Numbered from the stretch's first letter, positions 11,303-51,244 are shown. The stretch is 64,000 bases of DNA from Halonotius aquaticus (GCF_003605575.1 NZ_QKNY01000005.1:1-64000), one strand, 5' to 3'. Numbers and translations are program-made. Notes: generated by a model not told the origin, from the sequence alone.

Positions 11303-11926
11303 ATGGACATGGCGACAGCCCGCGACCGGCTGGTCGACAGCCTCGTCGCCAACGACATCATCACGAAATCGAGTACCGCCGAGGCGATGCGGGCGGTGCC
11401 GCGCCACGAGTTCGTCGATGCCGACCAGCAGGCGCAGGCCTACCAGGATCGCCCGCTGCCGATCGGCAACGACCAGACGATCAGCGCGCCGCATATGGTC
11501 GGCCAAATGGTCGACCTGCTTGATGTCGACCCCGGCGATCGCGTCCTCGAGATCGGCACGGGCTGTGGCTACCACGCCGCGGTCACCAGCGAGGTCGTCG
11601 GCGACGGCAACGTCTACAGCGTCGAGTACGATCGCGACCTTGGCGAGGCGGCCCGCCAGCGACTCGCCGACCTCGGCTATGACGTGGCTGTCCGCATCGG
11701 TGACGGCCGGGAGGGGTGGCCCGAGCGGGCCCCCTTCGACGCCAGCTACCTCACCTGTGCTGCCGCCGAGCCGCCGTCGGCGGTGATTGAGCAGACTGCG
11801 ACCGACGGCGTCGTCGTCGGGCCCTTTGGGACAGGCCAGCAGGAACTTAAGCGGCTTGTCCCGCAGCCTGACGGGAGCTGCGAATCTGAAACGATCGCGC
11901 CGGTGCGGTTTGTTCAGATGCGCTGA
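11303..11926 (+). CDS. pcm: Protein-L-isoaspartate O-methyltransferase
   Basis: Uses S-adenosylmethionine to methylate isoaspartyl residues in damaged proteins, starting their repair. The 207-residue protein has the Pcm start (AMRAVPRHEFV), the substrate loop with PLPIGNDQTISAPHMV, the SAM-binding motif VLEIGTGCGYHAAVTSEVVG, and the post-motif VRIGDGREGWPERAPFD. Length and order match the family. A diverged paralogue follows 40 bases downstream and is probably co-transcribed. Confidence 0.93.
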   Translation: MDMATARDRLVDSLVANDIITKSSTAEAMRAVPRHEFVDADQQAQAYQDRPLPIGNDQTISAPHMVGQMVDLLDVDPGDRVLEIGTGCGYHAAVTSEVVGDGNVYSVEYDRDLGEAARQRLADLGYDVAVRIGDGREGWPERAPFDASYLTCAAAEPPSAVIEQTATDGVVVGPFGTGQQELKRLVPQPDGSCESETIAPVRFVQMR

Positions 11927-11966
11927 CCGCGGTGGGGTTAAGCCGTTCCGCCCCCCAGTTCCGACA

Positions 11967-12719
11967 ATGGATCACGAAACGCTCCGGGCCGACATGGTCG
12001 ACGGGTTGGAACACGCCCTTGAGCGACCGCTCGGAGCCGCGGTGCTGGATGCCCTCGGAACCGTCCCGCGCCACGAGTTCGTCGACGACGCTTACGAGCC
12101 CGGCAGCGACGAGGTTGCCGGCTCCCGCGTGCTCGGCCTCCGGACGGTCGCCCGCATGATTGCTGCGCTTGAGGCCGGTGAAGGCGACGACACGCTCGTC
12201 GTCGGTGCGGGTGTCGGCTACACGGCAGCCGTCCTCGCCGAGATCGTCGGTGGCCGGCACGTCCACGCGATCGATATCGACCGTCGGCTCGTCCACATCG
12301 CCCGCGACAACCTCGGCGCGGCGGGCTACGACTCGGTGTTGGTCGATCGCCGCGATGGGGCTCGCGGTTACCCTGAATACGCGCCCTTCGATCGCGTCTT
12401 GATCGAAAGTGCGGTTCATGACGTGCCGCGGGCGATCCGCGAGCAACTCGCCGACGGGGGCCGGATCGTCTTTCCACGCGGGACGACCGACCAGACGCTC
12501 GTTGCTGTTGAGCCCGCAGGCGACGGCGGCCTCGAATTAGTCGGGGAGTTCGGCCCTGTCGGCTTTCGCCCGATGTTGGTCGACGGCGAACAGCCCAGCG
12601 GCCACGAGCGCAACCGGACGCGCCGGGAGGACGCCGAGTTCGACTCCCAGGGCTACTTCGCCAAAACGGGCTGGGAGTACGAGTGGCTGGACTGGGATGA
12701 TCGACTTGACTCGCGGTAG
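11967..12719 (+). CDS. Diverged Pcm-like methyltransferase paralogue
   Basis: A 250-residue relative of the preceding pcm product. It keeps VPRHEFVDDAYEPGS and a Rossmann glycine motif VVGAGVGYTAAVLAEIVGG with a following acidic residue (HAIDIDR). The region that holds the isoaspartyl substrate in Pcm (the IGNDQTISAPHMV segment) is replaced by VAGSRVLGLRTVARMI, so it may not repair isoaspartate. A C-terminal 50-residue extension ends in acidic and aromatic residues (YEWLDWDDRLDSR). It was likely produced by tandem duplication. The ATG at 11967 is the first start at which Pcm-like homology begins. Confidence 0.85.
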   Translation: MDHETLRADMVDGLEHALERPLGAAVLDALGTVPRHEFVDDAYEPGSDEVAGSRVLGLRTVARMIAALEAGEGDDTLVVGAGVGYTAAVLAEIVGGRHVHAIDIDRRLVHIARDNLGAAGYDSVLVDRRDGARGYPEYAPFDRVLIESAVHDVPRAIREQLADGGRIVFPRGTTDQTLVAVEPAGDGGLELVGEFGPVGFRPMLVDGEQPSGHERNRTRREDAEFDSQGYFAKTGWEYEWLDWDDRLDSR

Positions 12720-34928: not shown

Positions 34929-35240
34929 TTAGACGAGGAAGATCGCAACGAGTGCGAGGATCACGAGCGTCTCGGGCAGGACAGTCAGAATCAGGCCTCT
35001 GACGAACAGATCCTCGTTTTCGGCCATTGCGCCGACTGCGGCCGCACCGATGCCGCGCTCCGCATAGCCAGCGCCGAAGGCCGCCAGTCCAACACCGAGG
35101 GCAGCCGCTGCCGATGGGCTGAGGGCTCCGGTTGATGATGCTGCCTCTGCGGCTGCGCTCGCAGCTGCCTCTGCGGCTGCGCCCGCGTTTCCACTCGTCA
35201 ATACGATATTACCGACTTGTGATGTAAGTTCCAAGCTCAT
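34929..35240 (-). CDS. atpK: A-type ATP synthase subunit K (proteolipid) with Ala-rich extension
   Basis: Rotor-ring proteolipid of 103 residues. The two-helix hairpin comprises AAALGVGLAAFGAGYAERGI and LILTVLPETLVILALVAIF; the Glu in LPET is the ion-carrying carboxylate. The N-terminus before residue 40 is unusual: AGAAAEAAASAAAEAASSTG is encoded by two copies of a 19-base repeat (35140-35158 and 35164-35182). The family is normally about 85-90 residues, so the extension is about 15. The gene is now the first of the K-E-C-F-A-B block, cut off from atpI by the island. Confidence 0.95.
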   Translation of the reverse strand: MSLELTSQVGNIVLTSGNAGAAAEAAASAAAEAASSTGALSPSAAAALGVGLAAFGAGYAERGIGAAAVGAMAENEDLFVRGLILTVLPETLVILALVAIFLV

Positions 35241-35334: not shown

Positions 35335-36031
35335 GGCAGTGTTCAGACAAGGAGTGAAAAGTGAGGCGTCACGAGTTCTACGTGCTTATGGAAGAATTCG
35401 GACGCCTCAGTGGCAGTATCGACCAAATTGAGTTAGCCTTTGTGGAACGAGAAGCGACACCGGAGTTTCTGATGAAGCTCAGTATTCAGCTGCATCTGTC
35501 TGGATTATCACTTTCGAATACTGTTTCTGTACTTGAGGTATTCGGTGTCGAACGCGCTCGATCAAGCGTACATAACTGGGTTCACAAGGCGGATCTACAG
35601 CCCACGTCTGGGAAAGGCCCGGATCACGTTGCGGTTGATGAAACGGTGATCCACCTCAACGACGAGCGATATTGGCTGTACGCAGCGGTTGACTCAGAGA
35701 CAAACGAATTGCTGCATACAAACCTTGAACCGACGACTAACACCGGACTCGCAGAAGTGTTTCTCGCTGAGCTCAGCGAGAAACACGACGTTGCTGACGC
35801 CGTCTTTCTCATTGATGGTGCCCACTCACTACAGGCTGCCTGTCACCGAGCCGGCTACGATTTCAGATACGAAAAACATGGAAATCGAAACGCTGTCGAA
35901 CGTGTCTTCAGAGAACTAAAACGCAGAACTATCTATTTCTCGAACTGTTTCAGCAACGCCTCAGCAGACACAGCCGACGACTGGCTCAGATCGTTCAGCT
36001 TCGCATGGAACCAGCTTATCTGAACACTACC
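35335..36031 (+). mobile_element. IS6-family insertion sequence
   Basis: Element of about 697 bp containing one transposase gene. The ends match as inverted repeats: GGCAGTGTTCAGACAAG at the left and GGTAGTGTTCAGATAAG (reverse complement) at the right; GGC/GGT starts are typical of IS6 elements. CCCGCACAC is present immediately outside both ends (35326-35334 and 36032-36040), consistent with an 8-9 bp target duplication. The element therefore inserted by itself, between atpK and the kinase gene. Confidence 0.88.
35361..36023 (+). CDS. IS6-family transposase
   Basis: DDE transposase of 220 residues, the usual size for haloarchaeal IS6 elements. The three catalytic acids are in HVAVDETVIHL, FLIDGAHSLQ and NAVERVFRELKRR. 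The N-terminal helix-turn-helix is LSGLSLSNTVSVLEVFGVER and the SSVHNWVHK segment precedes the catalytic core. The start is GTG. The stop codon falls inside the right inverted repeat. The frame is complete, so the element may still be active. Confidence 0.92.
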   Translation: MRRHEFYVLMEEFGRLSGSIDQIELAFVEREATPEFLMKLSIQLHLSGLSLSNTVSVLEVFGVERARSSVHNWVHKADLQPTSGKGPDHVAVDETVIHLNDERYWLYAAVDSETNELLHTNLEPTTNTGLAEVFLAELSEKHDVADAVFLIDGAHSLQAACHRAGYDFRYEKHGNRNAVERVFRELKRRTIYFSNCFSNASADTADDWLRSFSFAWNQLI

Positions 36032-36198: not shown

Positions 36199-37398
36199 AT
36201 GTATACTAACATGACGCTCCCCCCGGATGTACATCCAAAGATACCACAATGGATACCCACGGGCCCTAATACTACAGTCAGTCTTTCTGAACTAAAGAAA
36301 AAAGAACTCATTGCAGCTAATTCGGATACCGATATTTTACGTATGTATACTGACTATCTAGATGATGATATCGTCGTTAAGCAACCATCAGGAAACAAGA
36401 CTGTCTCCGAAGATATATTCAAGAAGTTTGAAAATGAAGCTGAGATATGTTCAGCGCTTGATCACGATCATATAGTTGAATTGGTGGACTGGGGAAAGCA
36501 ACCGTTTCCTTGGATCGGGTTTGAACACATGGACGGAGGAAGCCTGTCTGACCGGATTGAATCTATATCACACTTGGAGGGATTATGGATTTCTGTGTCG
36601 GTCGCTGATGCGGTCTGGGAAGCACACACTACTGGCATAGCGCATCTAGATATAAAACCTGATAATATATTATTTCGAAGACTATCCAATGATGTTTGGG
36701 ATGTGCCAAAGATTGGCGACTGGGGTGTATCCAAGTGCTTATTCGATACAGCCCAAGACAGTAACGCCCTTTCACCGAGATATGCAGCTCCAGAACAGTT
36801 TGAACCTGAAGAATACGAAAGCCCAGACAACATAACGGATATATATCAACTCGGCACCGTTGTATATGAGATTCTCACCGCGAAGAAAATATTCACTGGA
36901 AAATCAGTTGAGGTAATGTATAAACACACCAGTAAATCACCCACTCCACCAACAAAAGTTGACCCAACTCTTCCAGCAGCAGTGGATGAGGTGCTGGCTA
37001 CCGCTCTTTCAACACGAAGAAAAGAAAGGTATGAGTCAATGCTTGACTTCCGTCGTGACTTAGAATCTCTGTTTCATACTGTTGCACATGATCAGAGCCC
37101 CACTCTCATCTGTGGTCGGGGTAATACTGATACAACGACAGATCACCGAGAGTCCGAATTGGAAACTGTGGAATCTGAAGTCGGAGCAGAATTCAACGAT
37201 GTCACAGCAAATAACTTGGGTAATTTCGGTAATAATACCGAAAATACTACACTTTGGAATGAAAATGCAGATATTTTGGAACAACTGGATTCTTGGGCGG
37301 AGTCAGAAAGAAAAAAAGAGGTCCCCTGGCAGTACCGAGATGATCCTCCAGGGATGAACCCAAAAACCAGCTCTGAAGACGAAAACAGCGATAAATAG
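36199..37398 (+). CDS. Eukaryote-like Ser/Thr protein kinase
   Basis: Soluble kinase of 399 residues. Catalytic residues are visible: VVK with Lys61, Glu79 or Glu81 in the C-helix, HLDIKPDN (Asp151, Lys153, Asn156), DWG in place of DFG (Asp174), YAAPEQF as activation-loop end, and DIYQLG with Asp214. Arg of the HRD motif is replaced by Leu, so it is a non-RD kinase, and the glycine-rich loop is not recognisable. Residues about 300-399 are a hydrophilic tail without membrane segment. An ATG at codon 5 is an alternative start. It is convergent with the HEAT membrane protein gene, 34 bases apart. Confidence 0.85.
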   Translation: MYTNMTLPPDVHPKIPQWIPTGPNTTVSLSELKKKELIAANSDTDILRMYTDYLDDDIVVKQPSGNKTVSEDIFKKFENEAEICSALDHDHIVELVDWGKQPFPWIGFEHMDGGSLSDRIESISHLEGLWISVSVADAVWEAHTTGIAHLDIKPDNILFRRLSNDVWDVPKIGDWGVSKCLFDTAQDSNALSPRYAAPEQFEPEEYESPDNITDIYQLGTVVYEILTAKKIFTGKSVEVMYKHTSKSPTPPTKVDPTLPAAVDEVLATALSTRRKERYESMLDFRRDLESLFHTVAHDQSPTLICGRGNTDTTTDHRESELETVESEVGAEFNDVTANNLGNFGNNTENTTLWNENADILEQLDSWAESERKKEVPWQYRDDPPGMNPKTSSEDENSDK

Positions 37399-37432
37399 TT
37401 TATCCAGATAATATAATATTTGATAGAAAACG

Positions 37433-38527
37433 CTAATCAGCTTTGTTTCTCAATACTTGGCTTGCAGTTTGACTGATTTCCCTGTCTGAATCCAGTCTAT
37501 ATGTTTCAAGTACATCAGTCGCGGTTGGGGTGTCAGCAGCACCAAGTGCTTCACAGGCGGCTTTTCTCACTGCGGTATCATCGTCATTTTCCAAAATAGC
37601 GGTCAATTGATCAACAGCTGCATCTGTAGGAACCTCCTCCGCGTCAATTGCAGTTGCTAACTCTCTACAGACCTCTTGCCGCTCTGTTGCATCTTTATCA
37701 GACAAGCGTGATTCGTATTCCTCCAATTGGAGTTTTGCCTGTTTATTACTACTGCCTTCGCCAGACGTTGCTGCACTCTCTTTATGAGACATTTCGTCTT
37801 TCTGTGCTGATTCTCCCGATGATTGTTCGCTGTCCTCCTCCTGCTCGGCGGTTTTCTTTGATACGTCGCTGGATGAGGCCTGTTGGCTGCCTGACTCGGG
37901 TTTATCTGCCTCACCAGCATCCGATTTAGTTGTTTTCTCATCGTTTGCTGGCTCGTTGATCGTGGATTCTACAGCAGGTTTGCTGTTTAGCGCAAGATAC
38001 CCAAACCCGATTGCTAGAGGCAGCTGGACGATGGCTGATGGTGGTGATGCAAATATGGAAAGAGCATTCAGAACAACATATCCTATCGCTGCGTACCATG
38101 CTATCTTCGATTCACGGCGCAAGCCGACACCAATTGCTATCGGCAATAGTACGCCAATTCCACCAATCACGCCGACAAGAGGTAAGATTCCTGACTGTCC
38201 CTGAAGTGATATCATGCCGAGAGAAGTAATAATTATCACAAACAAAATGGCTTGGAGTGCACCCCAACCAAACATACCATACTGTAGCCAAGTGAGATAT
38301 TTTTGTGCCTCTTGAGGAGTTTTATTTGGGGAACCCACTGGTGTTGTTTCTTCAGCGGGTTCTGAGTTAGTCGTCTCTGTAGAGGCTTCCTCCATACTCT
38401 CCCCGACTGTTGAGCCAACACTTGCTACCTGAGATCCAGACAGTAGACTTACCAATTTGATCGGTAATTTCACCATCTTAAATACGACACCCAACAATTT
38501 TCGGAGGATTTTGAGCGTGAATATCAT
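37433..38527 (-). CDS. Membrane protein with C-terminal HEAT-like repeats (paralogue 1)
   Basis: Protein of 364 residues in four parts. Residues 1-30 are a basic amphipathic segment (MIFTLKILRKLLGVVFKMVK, LPIKLV). Residues 31-75 are polar. Four hydrophobic helices follow at about 84-106, 113-135, 141-160 and 163-181. Residues 185-268 are a low-complexity Ser/Glu/Lys linker, and 270-364 form two HEAT-like units (DDDTAVRKAACEALGAADTP; SDREISQTASQVL). The N-terminus and HEAT region match the product of 42156-43415. I know no family name. It is divergent from the zinc-ribbon gene. Confidence 0.75.
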   Translation of the reverse strand: MIFTLKILRKLLGVVFKMVKLPIKLVSLLSGSQVASVGSTVGESMEEASTETTNSEPAEETTPVGSPNKTPQEAQKYLTWLQYGMFGWGALQAILFVIIITSLGMISLQGQSGILPLVGVIGGIGVLLPIAIGVGLRRESKIAWYAAIGYVVLNALSIFASPPSAIVQLPLAIGFGYLALNSKPAVESTINEPANDEKTTKSDAGEADKPESGSQQASSSDVSKKTAEQEEDSEQSSGESAQKDEMSHKESAATSGEGSSNKQAKLQLEEYESRLSDKDATERQEVCRELATAIDAEEVPTDAAVDQLTAILENDDDTAVRKAACEALGAADTPTATDVLETYRLDSDREISQTASQVLRNKAD

Positions 38528-38726
38528 GTTAAAAAAATTATTTGTTTGTGCTGTTGAACGGCAGTGAGATCAGTCATCTGTGGGTGGTCTAATCTATTAC
38601 TGTTCTTTGATTCTTTCTGTTTCATCACCAATCAATCCAACATGTTCAGTCAATCGATTTATATTCTTTGGTCAGACTGTTGGCTCTCATAACCAAATCA
38701 CGACTGGAAGATGGTTGCAATTAATT

Positions 38727-38777
38727 GTTTATTTTATATATTCAAAATATAATGCAAACCCAAAATATAAAATAAAC
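38727..38777. promoter_or_regulatory. 13-bp perfect inverted repeat upstream of the five-gene block
   Basis: GTTTATTTTATAT (38727-38739) and ATATAAAATAAAC (38765-38777) are exact inverse complements separated by 25 bases. The right arm ends 20 bases before the chosen start of the zinc-ribbon gene and itself contains TATAAAAT, a TATA element. Arrangement fits an operator overlapping a promoter. The remaining 38528-38726 is A+T-rich with no credible gene. Confidence 0.6.
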
Positions 38778-38797
38778 GGCTTGTTCTGTTGGAATGG

Positions 38798-40432
38798 ATG
38801 CGTTTACCTCACACCATATTCGACGGCAACGAACCGATCAGTGAGCGAGAAGCACAAACGCTGGCAATTAAGCAAGCCATTGACGACGAAGTTAGTGAAC
38901 ATGTAAATTCACAGTGGGGTAGGATCAAACGTCTCGGTGCTGCAGGCTTGTTGTTAGTTGTCGTCGGAGTCGGTATATTCTCCACGGGCAATAATATTGG
39001 AATCGGCATATCTGCATTGGGTCTTCTAGTCGGTGGTGGCGGTATTGGATACGTACGTTCTCAAGAACCGGACGTATCAGTGACAGGCATTAAAAAAGGC
39101 TACTGGACTGGTTATATGATACCCGACAGAGACGGGACAGTAGTATTTGATGCCACTGATTCAATAGAAAGAAAGGAATTCTCGGTTGAGTTGTTGGATG
39201 ACCCCAATGTTGTGGAGTCTGTTGAAGAAAACCTTGCTGAAATGAGTGAGTTTCCTGTAGTAATGACTGATCAATCGGATGTAGAGACTGATTTCGTCCA
39301 ATCGGTTGCGGACGTTCAAAATGCGATCAATACTGCGGAGCGACACGAACTTACTGCACCAGTGCTGACAGAAAAGGAGTCTGCCGTTAGCACGCTTGAC
39401 AAACTCGCACCAATGGCAGAGGAAGATCCAATTGACGCAGGTGGTGTCTCGGTTTCACTAGAAAAAGCAATAGATCAAGTTACCACGTTTAGTGACTTTG
39501 AGTCGATGGCTGACGAAGATCACGGTGAGTCAACTTTATTGAATGTGAGTGATCACAGCCGAGACTTGGCTAACGAGCTATCTGGACTACAAGAAACGGC
39601 CACAAGCCTCCTCAATGATCATATCAAGACTGCTGGCGACATGTTTGGGATGATTTCATACAATTTCTATTGTCCCGATTGCATGGAGGATGATATTGAG
39701 TCACGGTTAGAGATTGTCGGTGTTGATGGTGAGTGGCATTGTGATGCTTGCCGATCCAACTTTGCGCTGGACGGCGGAATTCCACGCCACCGGATTCGGG
39801 ATGAAGTCGTGTTAGATGTCTGGGATCAACTGTGGACAGAAAAAGACGATCAGCGTCGTGAGGTATATGAATCCATTGAGGATCAGAAGGCCGAGCTAAA
39901 AGAACGAGAGTTCGAACAGCGTCGTGAAGAGATTCGGAATGTCGAAAACCGAATTAAGGATATCAGATCCCGTATTCGAGATCTTCAGACTGAGGCAAAA
40001 GCCAAAGAGGGAATCGTTGAAGAGATTGGTAACCTGATGGTCAAGTATGAACGGCTTAGCAGTCAACGAAAAGAAAAATTCAGACAAGATATATCCGACT
40101 CGTTCGAGAGAATAGATCAGAAAACACAGGAAACGCTGAAAGAAACCGAGGGCATAGTTGAAAATCGCATTCAAGAAGCCGAAAACGAAGCGGAACAGCG
40201 GGCTGAAATGATGCGTGAAGAAGAACGACAGAGACACAAAGAACAGATGGCACAACAGAGGCAAATTGCCAAGGCACAGATGGAACAGCAGGCTGAAATC
40301 ACACAGGGCCAGGTGGCTAAAGAAGCTGAGATTGCTGGCAGACAGGTGGCCGAACAACAAGAGATGACTAAAGGAGTGATGGGAGCAATTGCGACAACAC
40401 ACGCAAACAAACCAAATAAGAGGGGGAAATAA
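38798..40432 (+). CDS. Two-TM, zinc-ribbon, coiled-coil membrane protein
   Basis: Protein of about 544 residues of no family I recognise. Two closely spaced hydrophobic helices lie at about residues 46-63 and 66-87 (LGAAGLLLVVVGVGIF; IGIGISALGLLVGGGGIGYV). A middle domain is followed by a zinc ribbon: YCPDC at about 292-295 and HCDAC at about 315-318. From about residue 340 to the end it is a continuous, charged coiled coil, turning Gln/Ala-rich near the end (AQQRQIAKAQMEQQAEITQG). The ATG at 38798 is chosen; a TTG three codons upstream is possible. First gene of a tightly packed block; the next starts two bases after its stop. Confidence 0.75.
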   Translation: MRLPHTIFDGNEPISEREAQTLAIKQAIDDEVSEHVNSQWGRIKRLGAAGLLLVVVGVGIFSTGNNIGIGISALGLLVGGGGIGYVRSQEPDVSVTGIKKGYWTGYMIPDRDGTVVFDATDSIERKEFSVELLDDPNVVESVEENLAEMSEFPVVMTDQSDVETDFVQSVADVQNAINTAERHELTAPVLTEKESAVSTLDKLAPMAEEDPIDAGGVSVSLEKAIDQVTTFSDFESMADEDHGESTLLNVSDHSRDLANELSGLQETATSLLNDHIKTAGDMFGMISYNFYCPDCMEDDIESRLEIVGVDGEWHCDACRSNFALDGGIPRHRIRDEVVLDVWDQLWTEKDDQRREVYESIEDQKAELKEREFEQRREEIRNVENRIKDIRSRIRDLQTEAKAKEGIVEEIGNLMVKYERLSSQRKEKFRQDISDSFERIDQKTQETLKETEGIVENRIQEAENEAEQRAEMMREEERQRHKEQMAQQRQIAKAQMEQQAEITQGQVAKEAEIAGRQVAEQQEMTKGVMGAIATTHANKPNKRGK

Positions 40433-40434
40433 TC

Positions 40435-41355
40435 ATGGCAAACGATGATCTTCATCCAATCCTGAAATCTATACATAGAACACTCAAAGATACACTAAAA
40501 GAAGGTCAGAAAATAAAGAGTGAGATAACCAAAGTCCACACAGCGATTACTGATGGTGTTGAAAAAGTTTTGGAGGCGATCAATGACACCATCCAAGCTC
40601 AAGCTGAGATGAAGATGATGGAGCATATGGTTGAGGTCAAATCGATCCTCCCGCAGATTGATGCTGAGAGGGAACGAATTGATGTTGAGGAAGAAGAGCT
40701 TGACAGGCAATTAGAACGTATCGCCGACAGATACGAAGATAAACACGACGAACTTGATGAGAAGGCAGCCAGCCGCATCCGGGACGTAGGGTCGCACATT
40801 TTTGAGATTGATGAGAATCAATTTGAGGAGGGGATTGAGACACCGTTCGCAGAACACGTCACGACGGCTTGGATGTCACTTCAAGCACAAAATGATGCGG
40901 TTGTGAAGAACCGGAGGGAACGGGTTGAATCGAGAACGTCAGAAGCCGTCGGCGAAATTCATGAATTTGTAAAAAAGCAGGATGAACTGGTAGAGCAAAT
41001 AGATAGAACAAGAACTGACATCGAGACTGACGTAGAAGAGCCGAAACCAATTCAGTTACCATACTACGCTGTGGAGGTCGAAATCAATGGCAGTACGAGT
41101 ACAACGCTCATTGAACCGTCAGCAGTTGAGAATGATTCTGAAGACGGTGCAACATTGACTCCACTGCCAGGCATGGATTCTGTGGTGTCTGCATGTCCAA
41201 TAAATGAAACCCGGACAGAGCAGATTGATCAAGCTAGCATTACGGATAATATCGAACAGTATACAACATCTGATCCACCGCTCGTCTCAACAGCTGATGC
41301 GTATGAAGACGCACTGCCAGAGCAAGTTGAGGTAACGTTGGAGGAGGACACGTAA
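40435..41355 (+). CDS. Soluble coiled-coil protein
   Basis: Protein of 306 residues without membrane segments or cysteine motifs (one Cys near residue 251). Residues about 5-190 are predicted helical coiled coil, with heptad-like LHPILKSIHRTLKDTLKEGQ and DVEEEELDRQLERIADRYED. The last 100 residues are acidic, with a short beta-like stretch LPYYAVEVEINGSTSTTLIE. Gaps to both neighbours are two bases, so it is almost certainly co-translated and may pair with the coiled coil of the preceding membrane protein. No family recognised. Confidence 0.72.
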   Translation: MANDDLHPILKSIHRTLKDTLKEGQKIKSEITKVHTAITDGVEKVLEAINDTIQAQAEMKMMEHMVEVKSILPQIDAERERIDVEEEELDRQLERIADRYEDKHDELDEKAASRIRDVGSHIFEIDENQFEEGIETPFAEHVTTAWMSLQAQNDAVVKNRRERVESRTSEAVGEIHEFVKKQDELVEQIDRTRTDIETDVEEPKPIQLPYYAVEVEINGSTSTTLIEPSAVENDSEDGATLTPLPGMDSVVSACPINETRTEQIDQASITDNIEQYTTSDPPLVSTADAYEDALPEQVEVTLEEDT

Positions 41356-41357
41356 CC

Positions 41358-42143
41358 ATGGCATCAATTGAAAAGACACGGGCAATTATCGAAGAAAATG
41401 AGACATATGACGGAAAAATAACACCTACTGTTAAGTCAGAAATCAGCAGGCCTGTCAAAATCAAACCTGGCGCGACGGTTGAGGGAAGTATCTATGGTGA
41501 GACGATTAATATCGACCGCGGGAAGGTTGAAGGATCGGTAATGGGTGCAGAGAGTGTTGAATTAGAGTCTGGCAATGTGGACGGAGATATCGGAACAGAT
41601 GGAAGAATAACATCATCAGCCTCAGCTGTGTATGGCACAATTACAGGACAGCGAGTCAGATTGACGAATACTATTGTCTATGGGAACGTTGTTGGTAGTA
41701 ATGTTGTACTTGAAAATTGCGTTGTGATCGGCCTCATCACGGCAGAGACACGACTGTCAGCTACAAATACGCTCTGTTACAGTTTCAAAACGTATGGTGA
41801 GGCAACCCTAACAGGGGTGTCAACAGTGCTCCCCCAAGCGATTGTCGAAGGTAAAGTTGAGTTTGATACTCCTGTGACAGTAACTGGTCTTGGTCAGTTG
41901 GACATTGACGAAGCTGACTTCCCGACAATGGATGAAGATGATTTGATCGAGCTGCACGAATCAACCTATCTTACGCTGTCGCCGCGAATCCTCAACCTAG
42001 AGGTAGTCACCGACCGGCTTGAGGAACTTGAATTGACTCTGCAGAAGGTCGTCACCGCGACCTCGGGAGTCGATACTCCTGCGGCAGGAGAGATTCTAAA
42101 CACGCTTGGTGTGAGTGACGACCACGTCCCTGACATTATATAA
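41358..42143 (+). CDS. Bactofilin-like polymer-forming beta-helix protein
   Basis: Protein of 261 residues. Residues about 28-170 are a run of short beta turns in which Gly and Val/Ile recur at helix-turn spacing: VEGSIYGETINIDRGKVEGS, VELESGNVDGDIGTDGRITS, VYGTITGQRVRLTNTIVYGN, VVGSNVVLENCVVIGLI. This is the pattern of a parallel beta-helix as in bactofilins and polymer-forming cytoskeletal proteins (haloarchaeal halofilins are related). An acidic linker and a C-terminal helix (LEELELTLQKVV) follow. No signal or membrane segment, so cytoplasmic. Fold assignment is by pattern only. Confidence 0.65.
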   Translation: MASIEKTRAIIEENETYDGKITPTVKSEISRPVKIKPGATVEGSIYGETINIDRGKVEGSVMGAESVELESGNVDGDIGTDGRITSSASAVYGTITGQRVRLTNTIVYGNVVGSNVVLENCVVIGLITAETRLSATNTLCYSFKTYGEATLTGVSTVLPQAIVEGKVEFDTPVTVTGLGQLDIDEADFPTMDEDDLIELHESTYLTLSPRILNLEVVTDRLEELELTLQKVVTATSGVDTPAAGEILNTLGVSDDHVPDII

Positions 42144-42155
42144 ATAGCTCAACCG

Positions 42156-43415
42156 ATGATCTTTGCAATCAAGATAACGCTAAAAATACTGAAAGGTATT
42201 ATCAAGGCTGTCGTGTTCCCAATAAAGCTTGTAGTGAAGCTATTCCAGCGATCTGATGTGAGTGCTGGTGATGTTGCGAATTCGGTTCCCAATACATCTA
42301 CAAGGGAAATACGAGAGAAGTCTAGCACAGCCATTGCCAGCGAATCTGATAGTGAACAATCTGAAACGTCCGACTCGTTAGCTGATTCCGAATCAACTAC
42401 CTTTCCAAGCTCAAGTGGTTCAGTAACAAGCAACTATTATGAACGATTTTACATGGGTCTCTTTGCTATTGCTGGCTTGAATGCTTTATTTATACTAAGC
42501 CGACTTATACAGTATGAGCTAAGAGGTGCTTGGTGGAAGGCCGGACTAGTAGTAACTGTTCTTGTGCCGTCTGTGTTGGGTTACTGGGTTCAAAATAGCT
42601 CAACTCAAGGTGGAGGGTTGAATATCGCATTTGCATACGGTATCTTCCTACTTATTAGCAGCACATTCAATCAGTTTATGGGGGAATTAACAGGAGTCTA
42701 TTTTATTCTTTCTCGTCCTCGATTCTGGATGCTAGAAAAATTTGCCAGTAATTTTGTTATTGTTTTCTTCTCGCTAGCTAACTATGCGGCGATTTTCTTT
42801 GTGGTCTATTGTGGATATAAGATTCGAACACAAGGTTCTGTGAATAAAACAGAAGCAAGTGCCATGACCTACGATGCTGAAACTCCTGCAGGTGATTCTC
42901 AACCGTCCAACCCCAATTCTAGCGGCAGCGAGAACGACGTTTCTTCTGAAAGCGAAACCCCCGAAACAACTGTAAGCTCAGAGTCAGCCCCAAGCGGAGA
43001 TGCACCAGTAGACCATGATGTAGTTGAAGACGATTCGGCAGGAGAGAGCACCACAGCTACTTCGGCAGACGATGAGCCATCCCAAGAGAAGCCCAAATCT
43101 GACACTGAACCAACTGCCGATGAAGAACCTTCTACACCGGGTGTAGCTGCTCCCGATGAGATTCTTGCCCAGATCGACGATCAAGTCACTGCAAATGATG
43201 TGCAGCGGCTTGGAACGGCCCTCACCGAATACCCGGCCACAGATGAAGTGTTGGCCGCTCTTGATGAGTGGGCTGATAGCGATGATCCCGAGATTCGGAT
43301 TGCTGTATGTGAAGCCTGCGCTGAGATTGAAGACTCGAAATCGGAAGACATTCTTCAGCTACTCAAAATAGATCGCAACGACCGCGTTATGCGTGCAGCA
43401 ACCGACGCTATGTGA
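42156..43415 (+). CDS. Membrane protein with C-terminal HEAT-like repeats (paralogue 2)
   Basis: Protein of 419 residues with the same plan as the product of 37433-38527. It begins MIFAIKITLKILKGIIKAVV then FPIKLVVKLF, shares M-I-F-x-x-K-I and P-I-K-L-V with the paralogue, then has a Ser-rich linker. Four hydrophobic helices lie at about 98-118, 127-145, 156-176 and 198-222. A long Ser/Glu/Asp linker (about 230-330) follows, then HEAT-like repeats with SDDPEIRIAVCEACAEIEDS, matching DDDTAVRKAACEALGAADTP of the paralogue. It ends MRAATDAM, about 8 residues shorter than the paralogue's last repeat. Last large gene of the block. Confidence 0.75.
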   Translation: MIFAIKITLKILKGIIKAVVFPIKLVVKLFQRSDVSAGDVANSVPNTSTREIREKSSTAIASESDSEQSETSDSLADSESTTFPSSSGSVTSNYYERFYMGLFAIAGLNALFILSRLIQYELRGAWWKAGLVVTVLVPSVLGYWVQNSSTQGGGLNIAFAYGIFLLISSTFNQFMGELTGVYFILSRPRFWMLEKFASNFVIVFFSLANYAAIFFVVYCGYKIRTQGSVNKTEASAMTYDAETPAGDSQPSNPNSSGSENDVSSESETPETTVSSESAPSGDAPVDHDVVEDDSAGESTTATSADDEPSQEKPKSDTEPTADEEPSTPGVAAPDEILAQIDDQVTANDVQRLGTALTEYPATDEVLAALDEWADSDDPEIRIAVCEACAEIEDSKSEDILQLLKIDRNDRVMRAATDAM

Positions 43416-43473
43416 AATGGTGCCGATACCGGTGGAAGTATATCGTAGCAAGTTCAACATTTTTCCATCAATA

Positions 43474-43716
43474 ATGCCAGCAAAATCCAGTGGCTCCCAT
43501 ATAAGCGGTCATCTCGTTTCATACATCGCAGCAGCATTTCTGGTCAAACATATCAACACGTACATACCTCCGTTCAGTGATCTGTCACATATGGTTGGTG
43601 GACTTTTTACCAGTCTTACGGGTGTAAATATATCTGACGAAATAAGTGGAATGCTTGTGGTTTCAACGTTCCTTATCGCTATGTGGGGTGTTGGCTTCCA
43701 CTTTTATGATCAGTAG
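43474..43716 (+). CDS. Small membrane protein at the end of the island
   Basis: Protein of 80 residues from the ATG at 43474 (MPAKSSGSHISGHLVSYIAA); an ATG at 43417, two bases after the preceding stop, would give 99 residues. It has hydrophobic segments at about residues 13-27 and 57-75 (GMLVVSTFLIAMWGVGFHFY) and a short loop with TGVNISDE. No family recognised. It is convergent with atpI, 35 bases apart, and is the last island gene. A CTTAG/CTAAG hairpin (about 43721-43737) lies between the two stops. Confidence 0.55.
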   Translation: MPAKSSGSHISGHLVSYIAAAFLVKHINTYIPPFSDLSHMVGGLFTSLTGVNISDEISGMLVVSTFLIAMWGVGFHFYDQ

Positions 43717-43751: not shown

Positions 43752-46007
43752 TTAGCTCTCGGTCGTAGTATGCTCCCGTTCGTAGCCGAACGGGGTATAC
43801 TCGCGGCCGCCGCCGTCGAAGAACTTCCCGAAGAACTCGACGTATTCGAGACGCACCGCCTGCAGGCCGGCACTCGTCACACCAAGCGCGAGGACGAGGA
43901 TGTGACCGAGAACGAGGACGAGAATCCCGATCAACAGCGAGGCGGCTTCCCCGTGGACGAGTCCCGGGAACAACACGCCGGTGACCGCCTCACCGTGATA
44001 GGTGCCCTGTTCGAGGTAGTACGCCGGCGAGTGTTGCAGCCCGAAGTGCCACTCCGCACCGTGGCTCGTTTCGGTGACCCACACGCCGAAAAACAGGAGG
44101 TTGACCGTGAAAGCCATCCCCGCCTTGGCGAGCAGCACCGCCGCAAGTCGGGTGTACGACAGCACGTTGACAAGGACGTTCAGGAATTCGACGACCTCGA
44201 TCGGCTCGCCGAGGGCCAAGAGGAACAGCCCGATGACGAAGACCAACAGCGGGATCGTGAATTCGCCACCAATCACCGGAATGCTGAACAGCCCCATCGC
44301 CGGGAAGCCACTGAATCCGAGTGGGAGCACACCCTCAGCAGCGAAGGTGGTGTAGATGAACTCCGGCACCGCACCGCGAACCGCGTCGCTGAAGACCCAG
44401 ACCCACAGCCCATTCATCATCAGGATCCACGAGCCGTTTTCGTAGATCGCGTGTTTGAGGTCGTGAATCTGGAAGTCCTCGATGAAGCCGAGAATCCACG
44501 CGATATTGAGGTGGACAACACCGACGAGCACGCTGACGACGAGCCAGCCGCGGGCCCAGTCGGCACCAGCCGGCGAGAGACCCTTCTCTATCGGTGCGTG
44601 GGCAAGGTCGACGACGCCTTCCCAGAAGTACGTCGCAATCACGTGTAAGCCGAACAGCTCACCGTAGAGAATCCCAAAGACAGCGGTGAACACACCGGCG
44701 GCGATGGTGACCCCGCCCATGCTCTTGAATCCCTGACTGTCGAAGGCCGTATACAGGTAGTAGCCGATCCCCATGTAGATGAGCCCGTAGCCGAGGTCAC
44801 CGATCATGAACCCGAAAAAGGCCGGGAACGTCAGAAAGAGGATGACCGTCGGATCGAACTCGTTGTACTTTGGCCGGCTGACAGCTTCGATGAGCACTTC
44901 GAACGGTTTGACGATGCCGGGATTGCTCTGGATGATCGGCGGATCGTCATCGTTCATCGTGACCGCGCCACCGCCGTCGGCGACGACTTCGCCGCCATCG
45001 GTAGCAGCCTCGGCATCAGCGTCAGCCGCGCTGCCGTGGTCTTCGACGTGCGCCTCGCCGTTCGATTTGAATTCGGCGCGCTCGATCTCGTCGACATCGA
45101 CCGGGCCGTCGACCTCGCTATCGAGCGTGGCCGCAAGGTCGTCGTAGCGGTCGGTCGGAATCCAGCCCTCGGCGACGAAGGCGTTGGTCGTCGTCGCAAA
45201 CGACAGTGGCGCCTCCTTCTTTTGGGCCTCAATGGCGAGATACTCCTCAGCCGCGAGCAGGAAGCCAGCCGACTCAGCTTTGACTGTTTCCAACTCGGCT
45301 TCGACCTCGCCGAGTTCGGCTTCGAGTGTTTCCTTTTCGCTTTCGAGGTCAGCGACGTACTGCTTGGGAGAGGTCTCGGCGTCAGGCACCGATAGCGTCG
45401 TGAACTCGACACCGACGAGTGAGTCGGCGATGAGTTCACTTGTGGGGTCGTACCCCTCGGCGGGCTGGGCGAAGATCGCCTGTGTGTCGCCGCCCGTGAA
45501 GATCTCGAAGCGGTTGATCGTCTCCTCGTCGTCGAGTTCCGCGGCGATGGCGTCGCGGTCGCCGTGGCCGACGAGGACGGCCAGCGAGTCGTAGCCGCTC
45601 AGGAGAGCCAAATCAAGCCCGAGTTCGGCGAAGGGGGCGACCGCCTCGATCTCCTCGTTGATCTCGCGGATCTGGGTTTCAAGCTCGCCGCGCTGGTCGT
45701 CGAGGTCGTTGATGCGGTCGCGGAGCTCGGGGAGCTCGGCGTTGAGTTCCTCGCGGTCGACGATCCGGGTCTGGCCGGCGTCGTCGTCCTCGATCCCGAG
45801 CGTGCTTTTGAGCGCGCGAACGGTGACGAGTTGCTCGTTGGTTTCCTCCGCGCTTTCCAGCGAGCGGCCGCCGTCGAAGCCCTTCCAAGAGCCGTCGTAG
45901 TCAGACAGATCCAGCAGGTTCAGTGCGTGGACAGCCTCGATGACGTCGTCGATGACGCGTTTTGAGCCCGTCACCGACACCTTGCTCATCTGCTCAGGTC
46001 TGAGCAT
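43752..46007 (-). CDS. atpI: A-type ATP synthase subunit I (subunit a)
   Basis: Large membrane stator subunit of 751 residues that forms the ion half-channels against the K ring. Residues about 1-340 are cytoplasmic and carry two acidic coiled-coil stretches plus an Ala/Asp-rich linker (ADADAEAATDGGEVVADGGG). Residues about 375-720 contain some eight helices, including PTVILFLTFPAFFGFMIGDL, LGEPIEVVEFLNVLVNVLSYTRLAAVLLAKAG with the essential arginine, and a final AGLQAVRLEYVEFFGKFFDG. Complete and undisturbed by the island, which begins 35 bases past its stop. Its start overlaps atpH by 14 bases. Confidence 0.96.
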   Translation of the reverse strand: MLRPEQMSKVSVTGSKRVIDDVIEAVHALNLLDLSDYDGSWKGFDGGRSLESAEETNEQLVTVRALKSTLGIEDDDAGQTRIVDREELNAELPELRDRINDLDDQRGELETQIREINEEIEAVAPFAELGLDLALLSGYDSLAVLVGHGDRDAIAAELDDEETINRFEIFTGGDTQAIFAQPAEGYDPTSELIADSLVGVEFTTLSVPDAETSPKQYVADLESEKETLEAELGEVEAELETVKAESAGFLLAAEEYLAIEAQKKEAPLSFATTTNAFVAEGWIPTDRYDDLAATLDSEVDGPVDVDEIERAEFKSNGEAHVEDHGSAADADAEAATDGGEVVADGGGAVTMNDDDPPIIQSNPGIVKPFEVLIEAVSRPKYNEFDPTVILFLTFPAFFGFMIGDLGYGLIYMGIGYYLYTAFDSQGFKSMGGVTIAAGVFTAVFGILYGELFGLHVIATYFWEGVVDLAHAPIEKGLSPAGADWARGWLVVSVLVGVVHLNIAWILGFIEDFQIHDLKHAIYENGSWILMMNGLWVWVFSDAVRGAVPEFIYTTFAAEGVLPLGFSGFPAMGLFSIPVIGGEFTIPLLVFVIGLFLLALGEPIEVVEFLNVLVNVLSYTRLAAVLLAKAGMAFTVNLLFFGVWVTETSHGAEWHFGLQHSPAYYLEQGTYHGEAVTGVLFPGLVHGEAASLLIGILVLVLGHILVLALGVTSAGLQAVRLEYVEFFGKFFDGGGREYTPFGYEREHTTTES

Positions 46008-51127: not shown

Positions 51128-51244
51128 GGTTAAACGGGCTTCGGGGATAGAACAGGCAACTCACTGCGGTTACGGGCTACCAGTGGGCACCCGGTTCGCC
51201 GGGACGAAATGTGGTCGGCCTGACCGACTGAATCGCAAGCGCCC
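51128..51244 (+). promoter_or_regulatory. Promoter and structured leader of rpl15e
   Basis: GGTTAAAC at 51128-51135 is a TATA-like element, giving a leader of about 95-100 nt. Positions 51185-51244 can fold: outer stem GGGC/GCCC (51185-51188 with 51241-51244), hairpin CCCGG-TTCG-CCGGG (51190-51203) closed by a UUCG tetraloop, and hairpin GTCGG-CCTGA-CCGAC (51214-51228). This resembles an autoregulatory ribosomal leader. Predicted by eye only. Confidence 0.45.

Follow-up and report, generated by a model that had tools for sequence, protein, structure and literature searches.

ESCRT and bactofilin systems related to the Halonotius aquaticus locus

The "main" ESCRT (endosomal sorting complexes required for transport) loci of haloarchaea, as described in the main text of Makarova et al. 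2024 (PMC10936438), encode Vps4, ESCRT-III, a coiled-coil/winged-helix protein and a Cas2-like/TBP-fold protein, often together with a kinase and a phosphatase. In bacteria, PspA, a member of the ESCRT-III superfamily, works with the SPFH protein YdjI at the membrane (as cited in the main text of PMC10936438). Here we analyze a gene island in a stretch of 64,000 nucleotides of DNA from Halonotius aquaticus (GCF_003605575.1 NZ_QKNY01000005.1:1-64000; the whole stretch is referred to as the window, and the genome as G000). The island encodes a protein kinase (A), two HEAT-repeat membrane paralogues (B and F), two coiled-coil proteins (C and D), a bactofilin-domain protein (E) and a small transmembrane (TM) protein (G). 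Genes C, D and E form a triad that we also found, with or without the other genes, in other archaea (below, G with a number denotes a genome, and L a locus).

In several of these archaea, the triad adjoins or lies within loci resembling the published ESCRT loci. As in the "main" and Halo_FHA loci, there is a Vps4/CdvC-like ATPase with an ESCRT-III-like gene upstream, a Ser/Thr kinase and a phosphatase, as well as a long coiled-coil protein with a partner of ~180 amino acids; the combination of SPFH with a zinc ribbon is shared with the Meth_adaptin loci (all according to the main text of PMC10936438). By contrast, that main text does not describe the C-D-E triad, the word "bactofilin" being absent from it, and most haloarchaeal triads have no ESCRT genes with them. 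The statement in the preliminary description of the window that none of the genes matches a named system is only half right, given the loci of ESCRT-like composition that the triad adjoins or occupies in several archaea. Like bactofilins and halofilins, E contains a bactofilin domain and presumably forms beta-helical filaments, but, unlike them, its gene is always accompanied by those of two dedicated coiled-coil partners (the halofilins were compared with E by description). The likeness to PspA-YdjI is conceptual only, consisting in the pairing of an ESCRT-III-superfamily protein with an SPFH protein, and the bacterial pair comes without a bactofilin. A literature search pairing "bactofilin" with "ESCRT" returned nothing that, by title and abstract, appears to address this link.

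We know of no established function for the ESCRT systems in haloarchaea and related archaea, nor, to our knowledge, is it known how these systems are placed at the membrane. The explanation we favor, to which we give an even chance, is that the island is a horizontally moved bactofilin-scaffold accessory of archaeal ESCRT-type membrane-remodelling machinery, from which it is detached in the window; it carries the triad, the kinase, the HEAT paralogues and gene G, and we read it as a detached part of such a system. In this scheme, C would be embedded in the membrane through its TM hairpin and would join D through coiled coils, C and D would tether filaments of the bactofilin E on the inner side of that membrane, and the HEAT membrane proteins would serve as adaptors. 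Assembly might be tuned by the kinase together with the PP2C phosphatase encoded in the ESCRT-type locus, and the scaffold could mark or stabilize curved membrane for remodelling or cutting by an ESCRT-III-like polymer and a Vps4-like ATPase encoded elsewhere in the genome. We infer all these protein contacts, the ESCRT-III identity and the cellular outcome. If correct, this would connect a cytoskeletal filament of bacterial type with a membrane-cutting machine of eukaryote type, and the triad, lying by or within several ESCRT-type loci, would be a genetically testable candidate for their membrane scaffold.

Conservation and mobility of the C-D-E triad

Gene C (positions 38798-40432, plus strand) encodes a protein with a TM hairpin, a four-Cys zinc ribbon and a long coiled coil; D (40435-41355, plus strand) combines a long coiled coil with a beta domain at the C-terminus, and E (41358-42143, plus strand) is a bactofilin-domain beta-helix protein. 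A search with E in 292 haloarchaeal genomes yielded, outside G000, 13 full-length or near-full-length matches; G036 contributed a fragment, and a few other matches were weak or partial. C and D are located directly upstream of every full-length match, on the same strand, and in many cases a stop codon overlaps the start of the following gene. Wherever E is full-length, the C-D-E order is kept, at 36-63% identity, a conservation far beyond chance. In a search with C, 15 of 391 haloarchaeal genomes, from five families, were strong carriers, with C-D-E in the same order and strand at unrelated sites; G232 and G280 gave weak scores, through a diverged form. Profile-profile comparison linked this diverged triad to the canonical one, with match probabilities of 98.2 for C (E 2.7e-14), 96.2 for D (69 columns) and 95.1 for E, and, in a phylum-wide sample of 295 genomes, the diverged-C profile matched only one. 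A pattern scan of ~85,000 species, which misses diverged forms, detected C only in haloarchaea.

Altogether, we examined 18 distinct loci, including those of Halorientalis marina (L036), Halorarius halobius (L038) and G408. A HEAT membrane protein adjoins the triad in 11 of these and a kinase in four; neighboring genes vary between loci, and the family labels are intermixed in the C-D-E tree. Because the flanking genes differ and the distribution is patchy, horizontal movement is indicated. Overall, the triad is a real, conserved and mobile gene module. Most likely, this module of two coiled-coil families and a bactofilin acts as a membrane-anchored scaffold; the membrane-associated scaffold proposed in the preliminary description was a fair reading, and its suggestion that the genes form a system is borne out by the strict syntenic co-occurrence of C, D and E and the recurrence of the HEAT protein and the kinase. 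That the island is a set of unrelated foreign genes lying together by chance is highly improbable: B has the opposite orientation and an IS6 element lies at one edge, as might be expected of an accidental cluster, but the strict gene order of the triad spans divergent genomes and extends to a second class, and the HEAT membrane protein and kinase reappear with it. For C-D-E themselves, chance clustering was rejected given the order conserved across divergent genomes.

Degraded copies were detected as well. In G037 (L023, G037:C1:881500-901400), the C gene is split in two pieces (11310-12595), and a second, N-terminal C fragment with two stops is found near the ESCRT-type locus of this genome, beside transposase genes (G037:C1:1496214-1496378). 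In G036 (L034, 9524-9733), a remnant of 69 amino acids from the C-terminus of E persists without C or D, which suggests loss of the module.

Several features of the module also fit an anti-phage or stress-defence island, that is, a sporadic, horizontally moved set of genes with a kinase and membrane components: the distribution is scattered (15/391), insertion sites vary, the GC content of the island is low with the IS6 element adjoining, and the kinase matches the PADLOC PD-T4-6 and related models. These kinase matches are generic, however; C and D produced only weak coiled-coil matches to PADLOC models, and E and the HEAT proteins none. Among 125 flanking proteins from 14 loci, the Pfam matches shown were mostly to housekeeping (metabolic and regulatory) families, with a few transposases; PADLOC defence-model matches in the flanks were few, and many of these were to Cas12f models, which pick up genes for TnpB-type transposases as well. 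Furthermore, relatives were absent from the viral contigs and plasmids searched with C and from the phages searched with E. Thus, the role in defence raised in the preliminary description finds no backing in the defence-island check, and we consider such a function improbable. Separately, a few genes in the triad flanks of L023-L039 match MADS, Csx1 or LmuA defence models.

Placement of the triad by and within ESCRT-type loci

In G068, the triad is part of the series CC718, P180, TM92, ESCRT-III-like, Vps4-like, G, SPFH, HEAT, ZnR, kinase, C, D, E, HEAT-membrane; in G268, the block of ZnR, kinase, C-D-E and HEAT-membrane borders on CC718/P180, and farther out come TM92, ESCRT-III-like, Vps4-like, G, SPFH and HEAT. 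Here, CC718 is a long coiled-coil protein, P180 consists of 180 amino acids, TM92 has three TM segments, the ESCRT-III-like protein is a lysine-rich helical protein of 225 amino acids, and the ATPase is a single-domain AAA protein with a helical N-terminus, followed by G and an SPFH/zinc-ribbon protein; ZnR is a zinc-ribbon protein. In G408, which lies outside the class of the window, a Vps4-like gene is found 6-7 kb upstream of the triad and itself follows a 203-amino-acid helical protein, CC718 and P180; beyond CC718/P180 come TM92, the ESCRT-III-like gene and a second Vps4-like gene. G280, G232 and G469 have the diverged triad within their ESCRT-type loci. The genome of the window, G000, also has two ESCRT-type loci, and the small TM protein G of the window provides another connection: in the ESCRT-type loci L022/L073 and L074, its homologues are encoded after the Vps4-like ATPase and before the SPFH protein, or in the reverse sense, between these two genes (E 3e-10 for L022).

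The kinase shows a similar association. A kinase and a PP2C phosphatase are frequent in ESCRT-type loci. Kinases are scarce in most of the genomes concerned, but one lies beside the triad in each of G000, G068, G268 and G408, genomes that encode three (G000) or two kinases each; G109 and G033 encode none. By our own arithmetic, with 2-3 kinases in 2.1 to 3.5 Mb, the chance of a kinase occurring within 5 kb of the triad is ~1% per genome. In G037 (L078, L072, G037:C1:1466837-1497836), all seven kinase matches cluster round the ESCRT-type locus, together with a PP2C phosphatase.

At the level of genomes, the ESCRT-III-like gene and the triad occur together in four cases compared with ~0.6 expected, given 15 strong carriers of each among the 391 genomes (hypergeometric P 0.0015, uncorrected for relatedness). 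Because the four genomes concerned, G000, G037, G068 and G268, belong to one clade of the triad tree, this overlap may be close to a single event, and the physical placement in separate lineages is the stronger argument.

Individual components of the larger loci (G068, G268, G408 and G280) were compared with ESCRT proteins. The best NCBIfam model for the ATPase is CdvC, aligned over residues 9-375 of 379, including the N-terminal region (E 9.6e-52), but the score of 176 bits is far under the 650-bit cut-off, with CDC48 close behind; the G469 locus yields a weak Vps4_C match. CC718 and P180 fit, in size and position, the proteins of arCOG09748 and arCOG08177 as these are described in the published account. 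The helical, lysine-rich protein of 225 amino acids encoded upstream of the ATPase is designated ESCRT-III-like by gene order and the published locus description, not by a sequence match, and this assignment is unproven. In L117 and L119 (G211 and G269), an ESCRT-III-like domain is part of a 402-amino-acid protein, and no Vps4-like or CC718 genes were found within the 20 kb read.

A number of findings weigh against coupling of the module to ESCRT-type machinery. Besides the single-clade overlap, the window module is not beside the two ESCRT-type loci of G000, which are on contigs C13 and C16 and carry the Vps4-like and ESCRT-III-like genes; these two genes are not within the window island, and no triad was found in the stretches read around the loci on C13 and C16. 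The ESCRT-III-like family showed no Snf7 match above the cut-off (nor did the Sulfolobus control) and no match in PDB. The fold search with D gave no match, and structure prediction yielded poor models for both C and D, with predicted template modelling (pTM) scores of 0.26 and 0.22, respectively. Finally, an ESCRT-III-like gene of this type is missing from 11 of the 15 triad genomes as well as from L036 and L038, and the ATPase search in the same set gave only Cdc48/PAN-type matches.

With most triad genomes thus free of ESCRT-III-like and Vps4-like genes, and the core in them reduced to HEAT-membrane, C, D and E, or to C-D-E alone, a stand-alone function is a serious rival: the triad would be a membrane-anchored, halofilin-like bactofilin module organizing cell shape or the cell surface, and proximity to ESCRT genes would reflect recruitment or co-location rather than a shared pathway. 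Such a role would fit what is known of bacterial bactofilins, which assemble into membrane-bound filaments recruiting client membrane proteins (PMC12448750), and of halofilins, which are described as affecting curvature and shape in Haloferax (PMC12186497). However, co-location alone hardly explains why the triad or its diverged version is found by or within ESCRT-type loci in G068/G268, G408, G280/G232 and G469. The window island, moreover, includes gene G of the ESCRT-type locus, and we regard a purely independent function as the less likely alternative. Returning to the scaffold accessory of ESCRT-type machinery, we tentatively suggest a broader form of this reading, an undescribed class of cytoskeleton-ESCRT coupling in which C-D-E is a transferable scaffold that positions archaeal ESCRT-type remodelling and works alone where that ESCRT was lost or never present. 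The free-standing triads would then be natural controls.

Proteins of the module

Across 13 homologues of C, the zinc-ribbon cysteines C292, C295, C315 and C318 are invariant, confirming the zinc ribbon noticed previously, and the homologues share the motif EKDD.RR..Y..IEDQ. Neither of the two coiled-coil families, C and D, has a Pfam match above the cut-off. E matches PF04519 at 29.0 bits, compared with the cut-off of 27.9, and 13 of 14 E homologues match this family at E <= 0.01; against PDB, E shows only weak beta-helix matches, with Bactofilin A at E 0.08.

Kinase A (36199-37398, plus strand) is a soluble Ser/Thr-type protein kinase (PF00069, E 5e-26), and its close homologues adjoin the triad in L021 and L022. 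It retains the beta-3 Lys (VVK), the HLD catalytic loop and DWG, so that the catalytic Lys, the catalytic Asp and the DFG-type motif are all present, but the glycine-rich ATP loop has been lost (AANSDTD as opposed to GSGGTAD or GIGGTAD in relatives). Given this loss, phosphorylation control may fail in the window copy. Assembly set by phosphorylation, as envisaged in the preliminary description, is therefore plausible for ESCRT-type loci with a kinase and a PP2C phosphatase but questionable for the window itself. The paralogues B (37433-38527, minus strand) and F (42156-43415, plus strand) are membrane proteins with C-terminal HEAT repeats, detected by HEAT_2 matches of 1.7e-11 and 1.7e-5, the second under its cut-off. 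Domain matches thus support the kinase, the HEAT membrane paralogues and the bactofilin-like protein as originally recognized.

The island and its insertion site

All seven genes, A to G, are present where they had been reported, between 36199 and 43716, and share the same composition, with GC content of ~0.44-0.46 across 36-43 kb compared with ~0.63 in the flanks. G (43474-43716, plus strand) probably starts at ATG 43474, giving 80 amino acids and the same start as its L022 homologue; with this start, set by homology, the gaps between the tandem genes C, D, E, F and G are 2, 2, 12 and 58 bases, in agreement with the close packing noted initially. For C, the true start is probably ATG 38798, in line with the homologues, TTG 38789 being another possible start.

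The low-GC block extends beyond these seven genes to an eighth, the IS6 transposase, and interrupts the A-type ATPase operon between atpI and atpK; both this transposase and the position in the ATPase operon had been left out of the preliminary description. The IS6-family insertion sequence (35335-36031, plus strand) forms the left edge of the island and contains the transposase coding sequence (35361-36023; NCBIfam transpos_IS6, 183.9 bits, cut-off 125), with inverted ends at 35335-35351 and 36015-36031 that are 88% complementary. Outside the module, atpK (34929-35240, minus strand) is on the left flank and atpI (43752-46007, minus strand) on the right. In G231, a genome of the same genus, the operon is uninterrupted, with ~290 bases between atpI and atpK, and G231 and the window share the sequence CGGGTTTGGGAAGCTTTATG upstream of atpK; from this spacing and the shared sequence, it follows that the block is an insertion. 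Despite the insertion, atpK probably keeps its own promoter. Farther along the window, positions 51190-51239 match, at 49.5 bits, the Rfam family of the euryarchaeal eL15 ribosomal protein leader.

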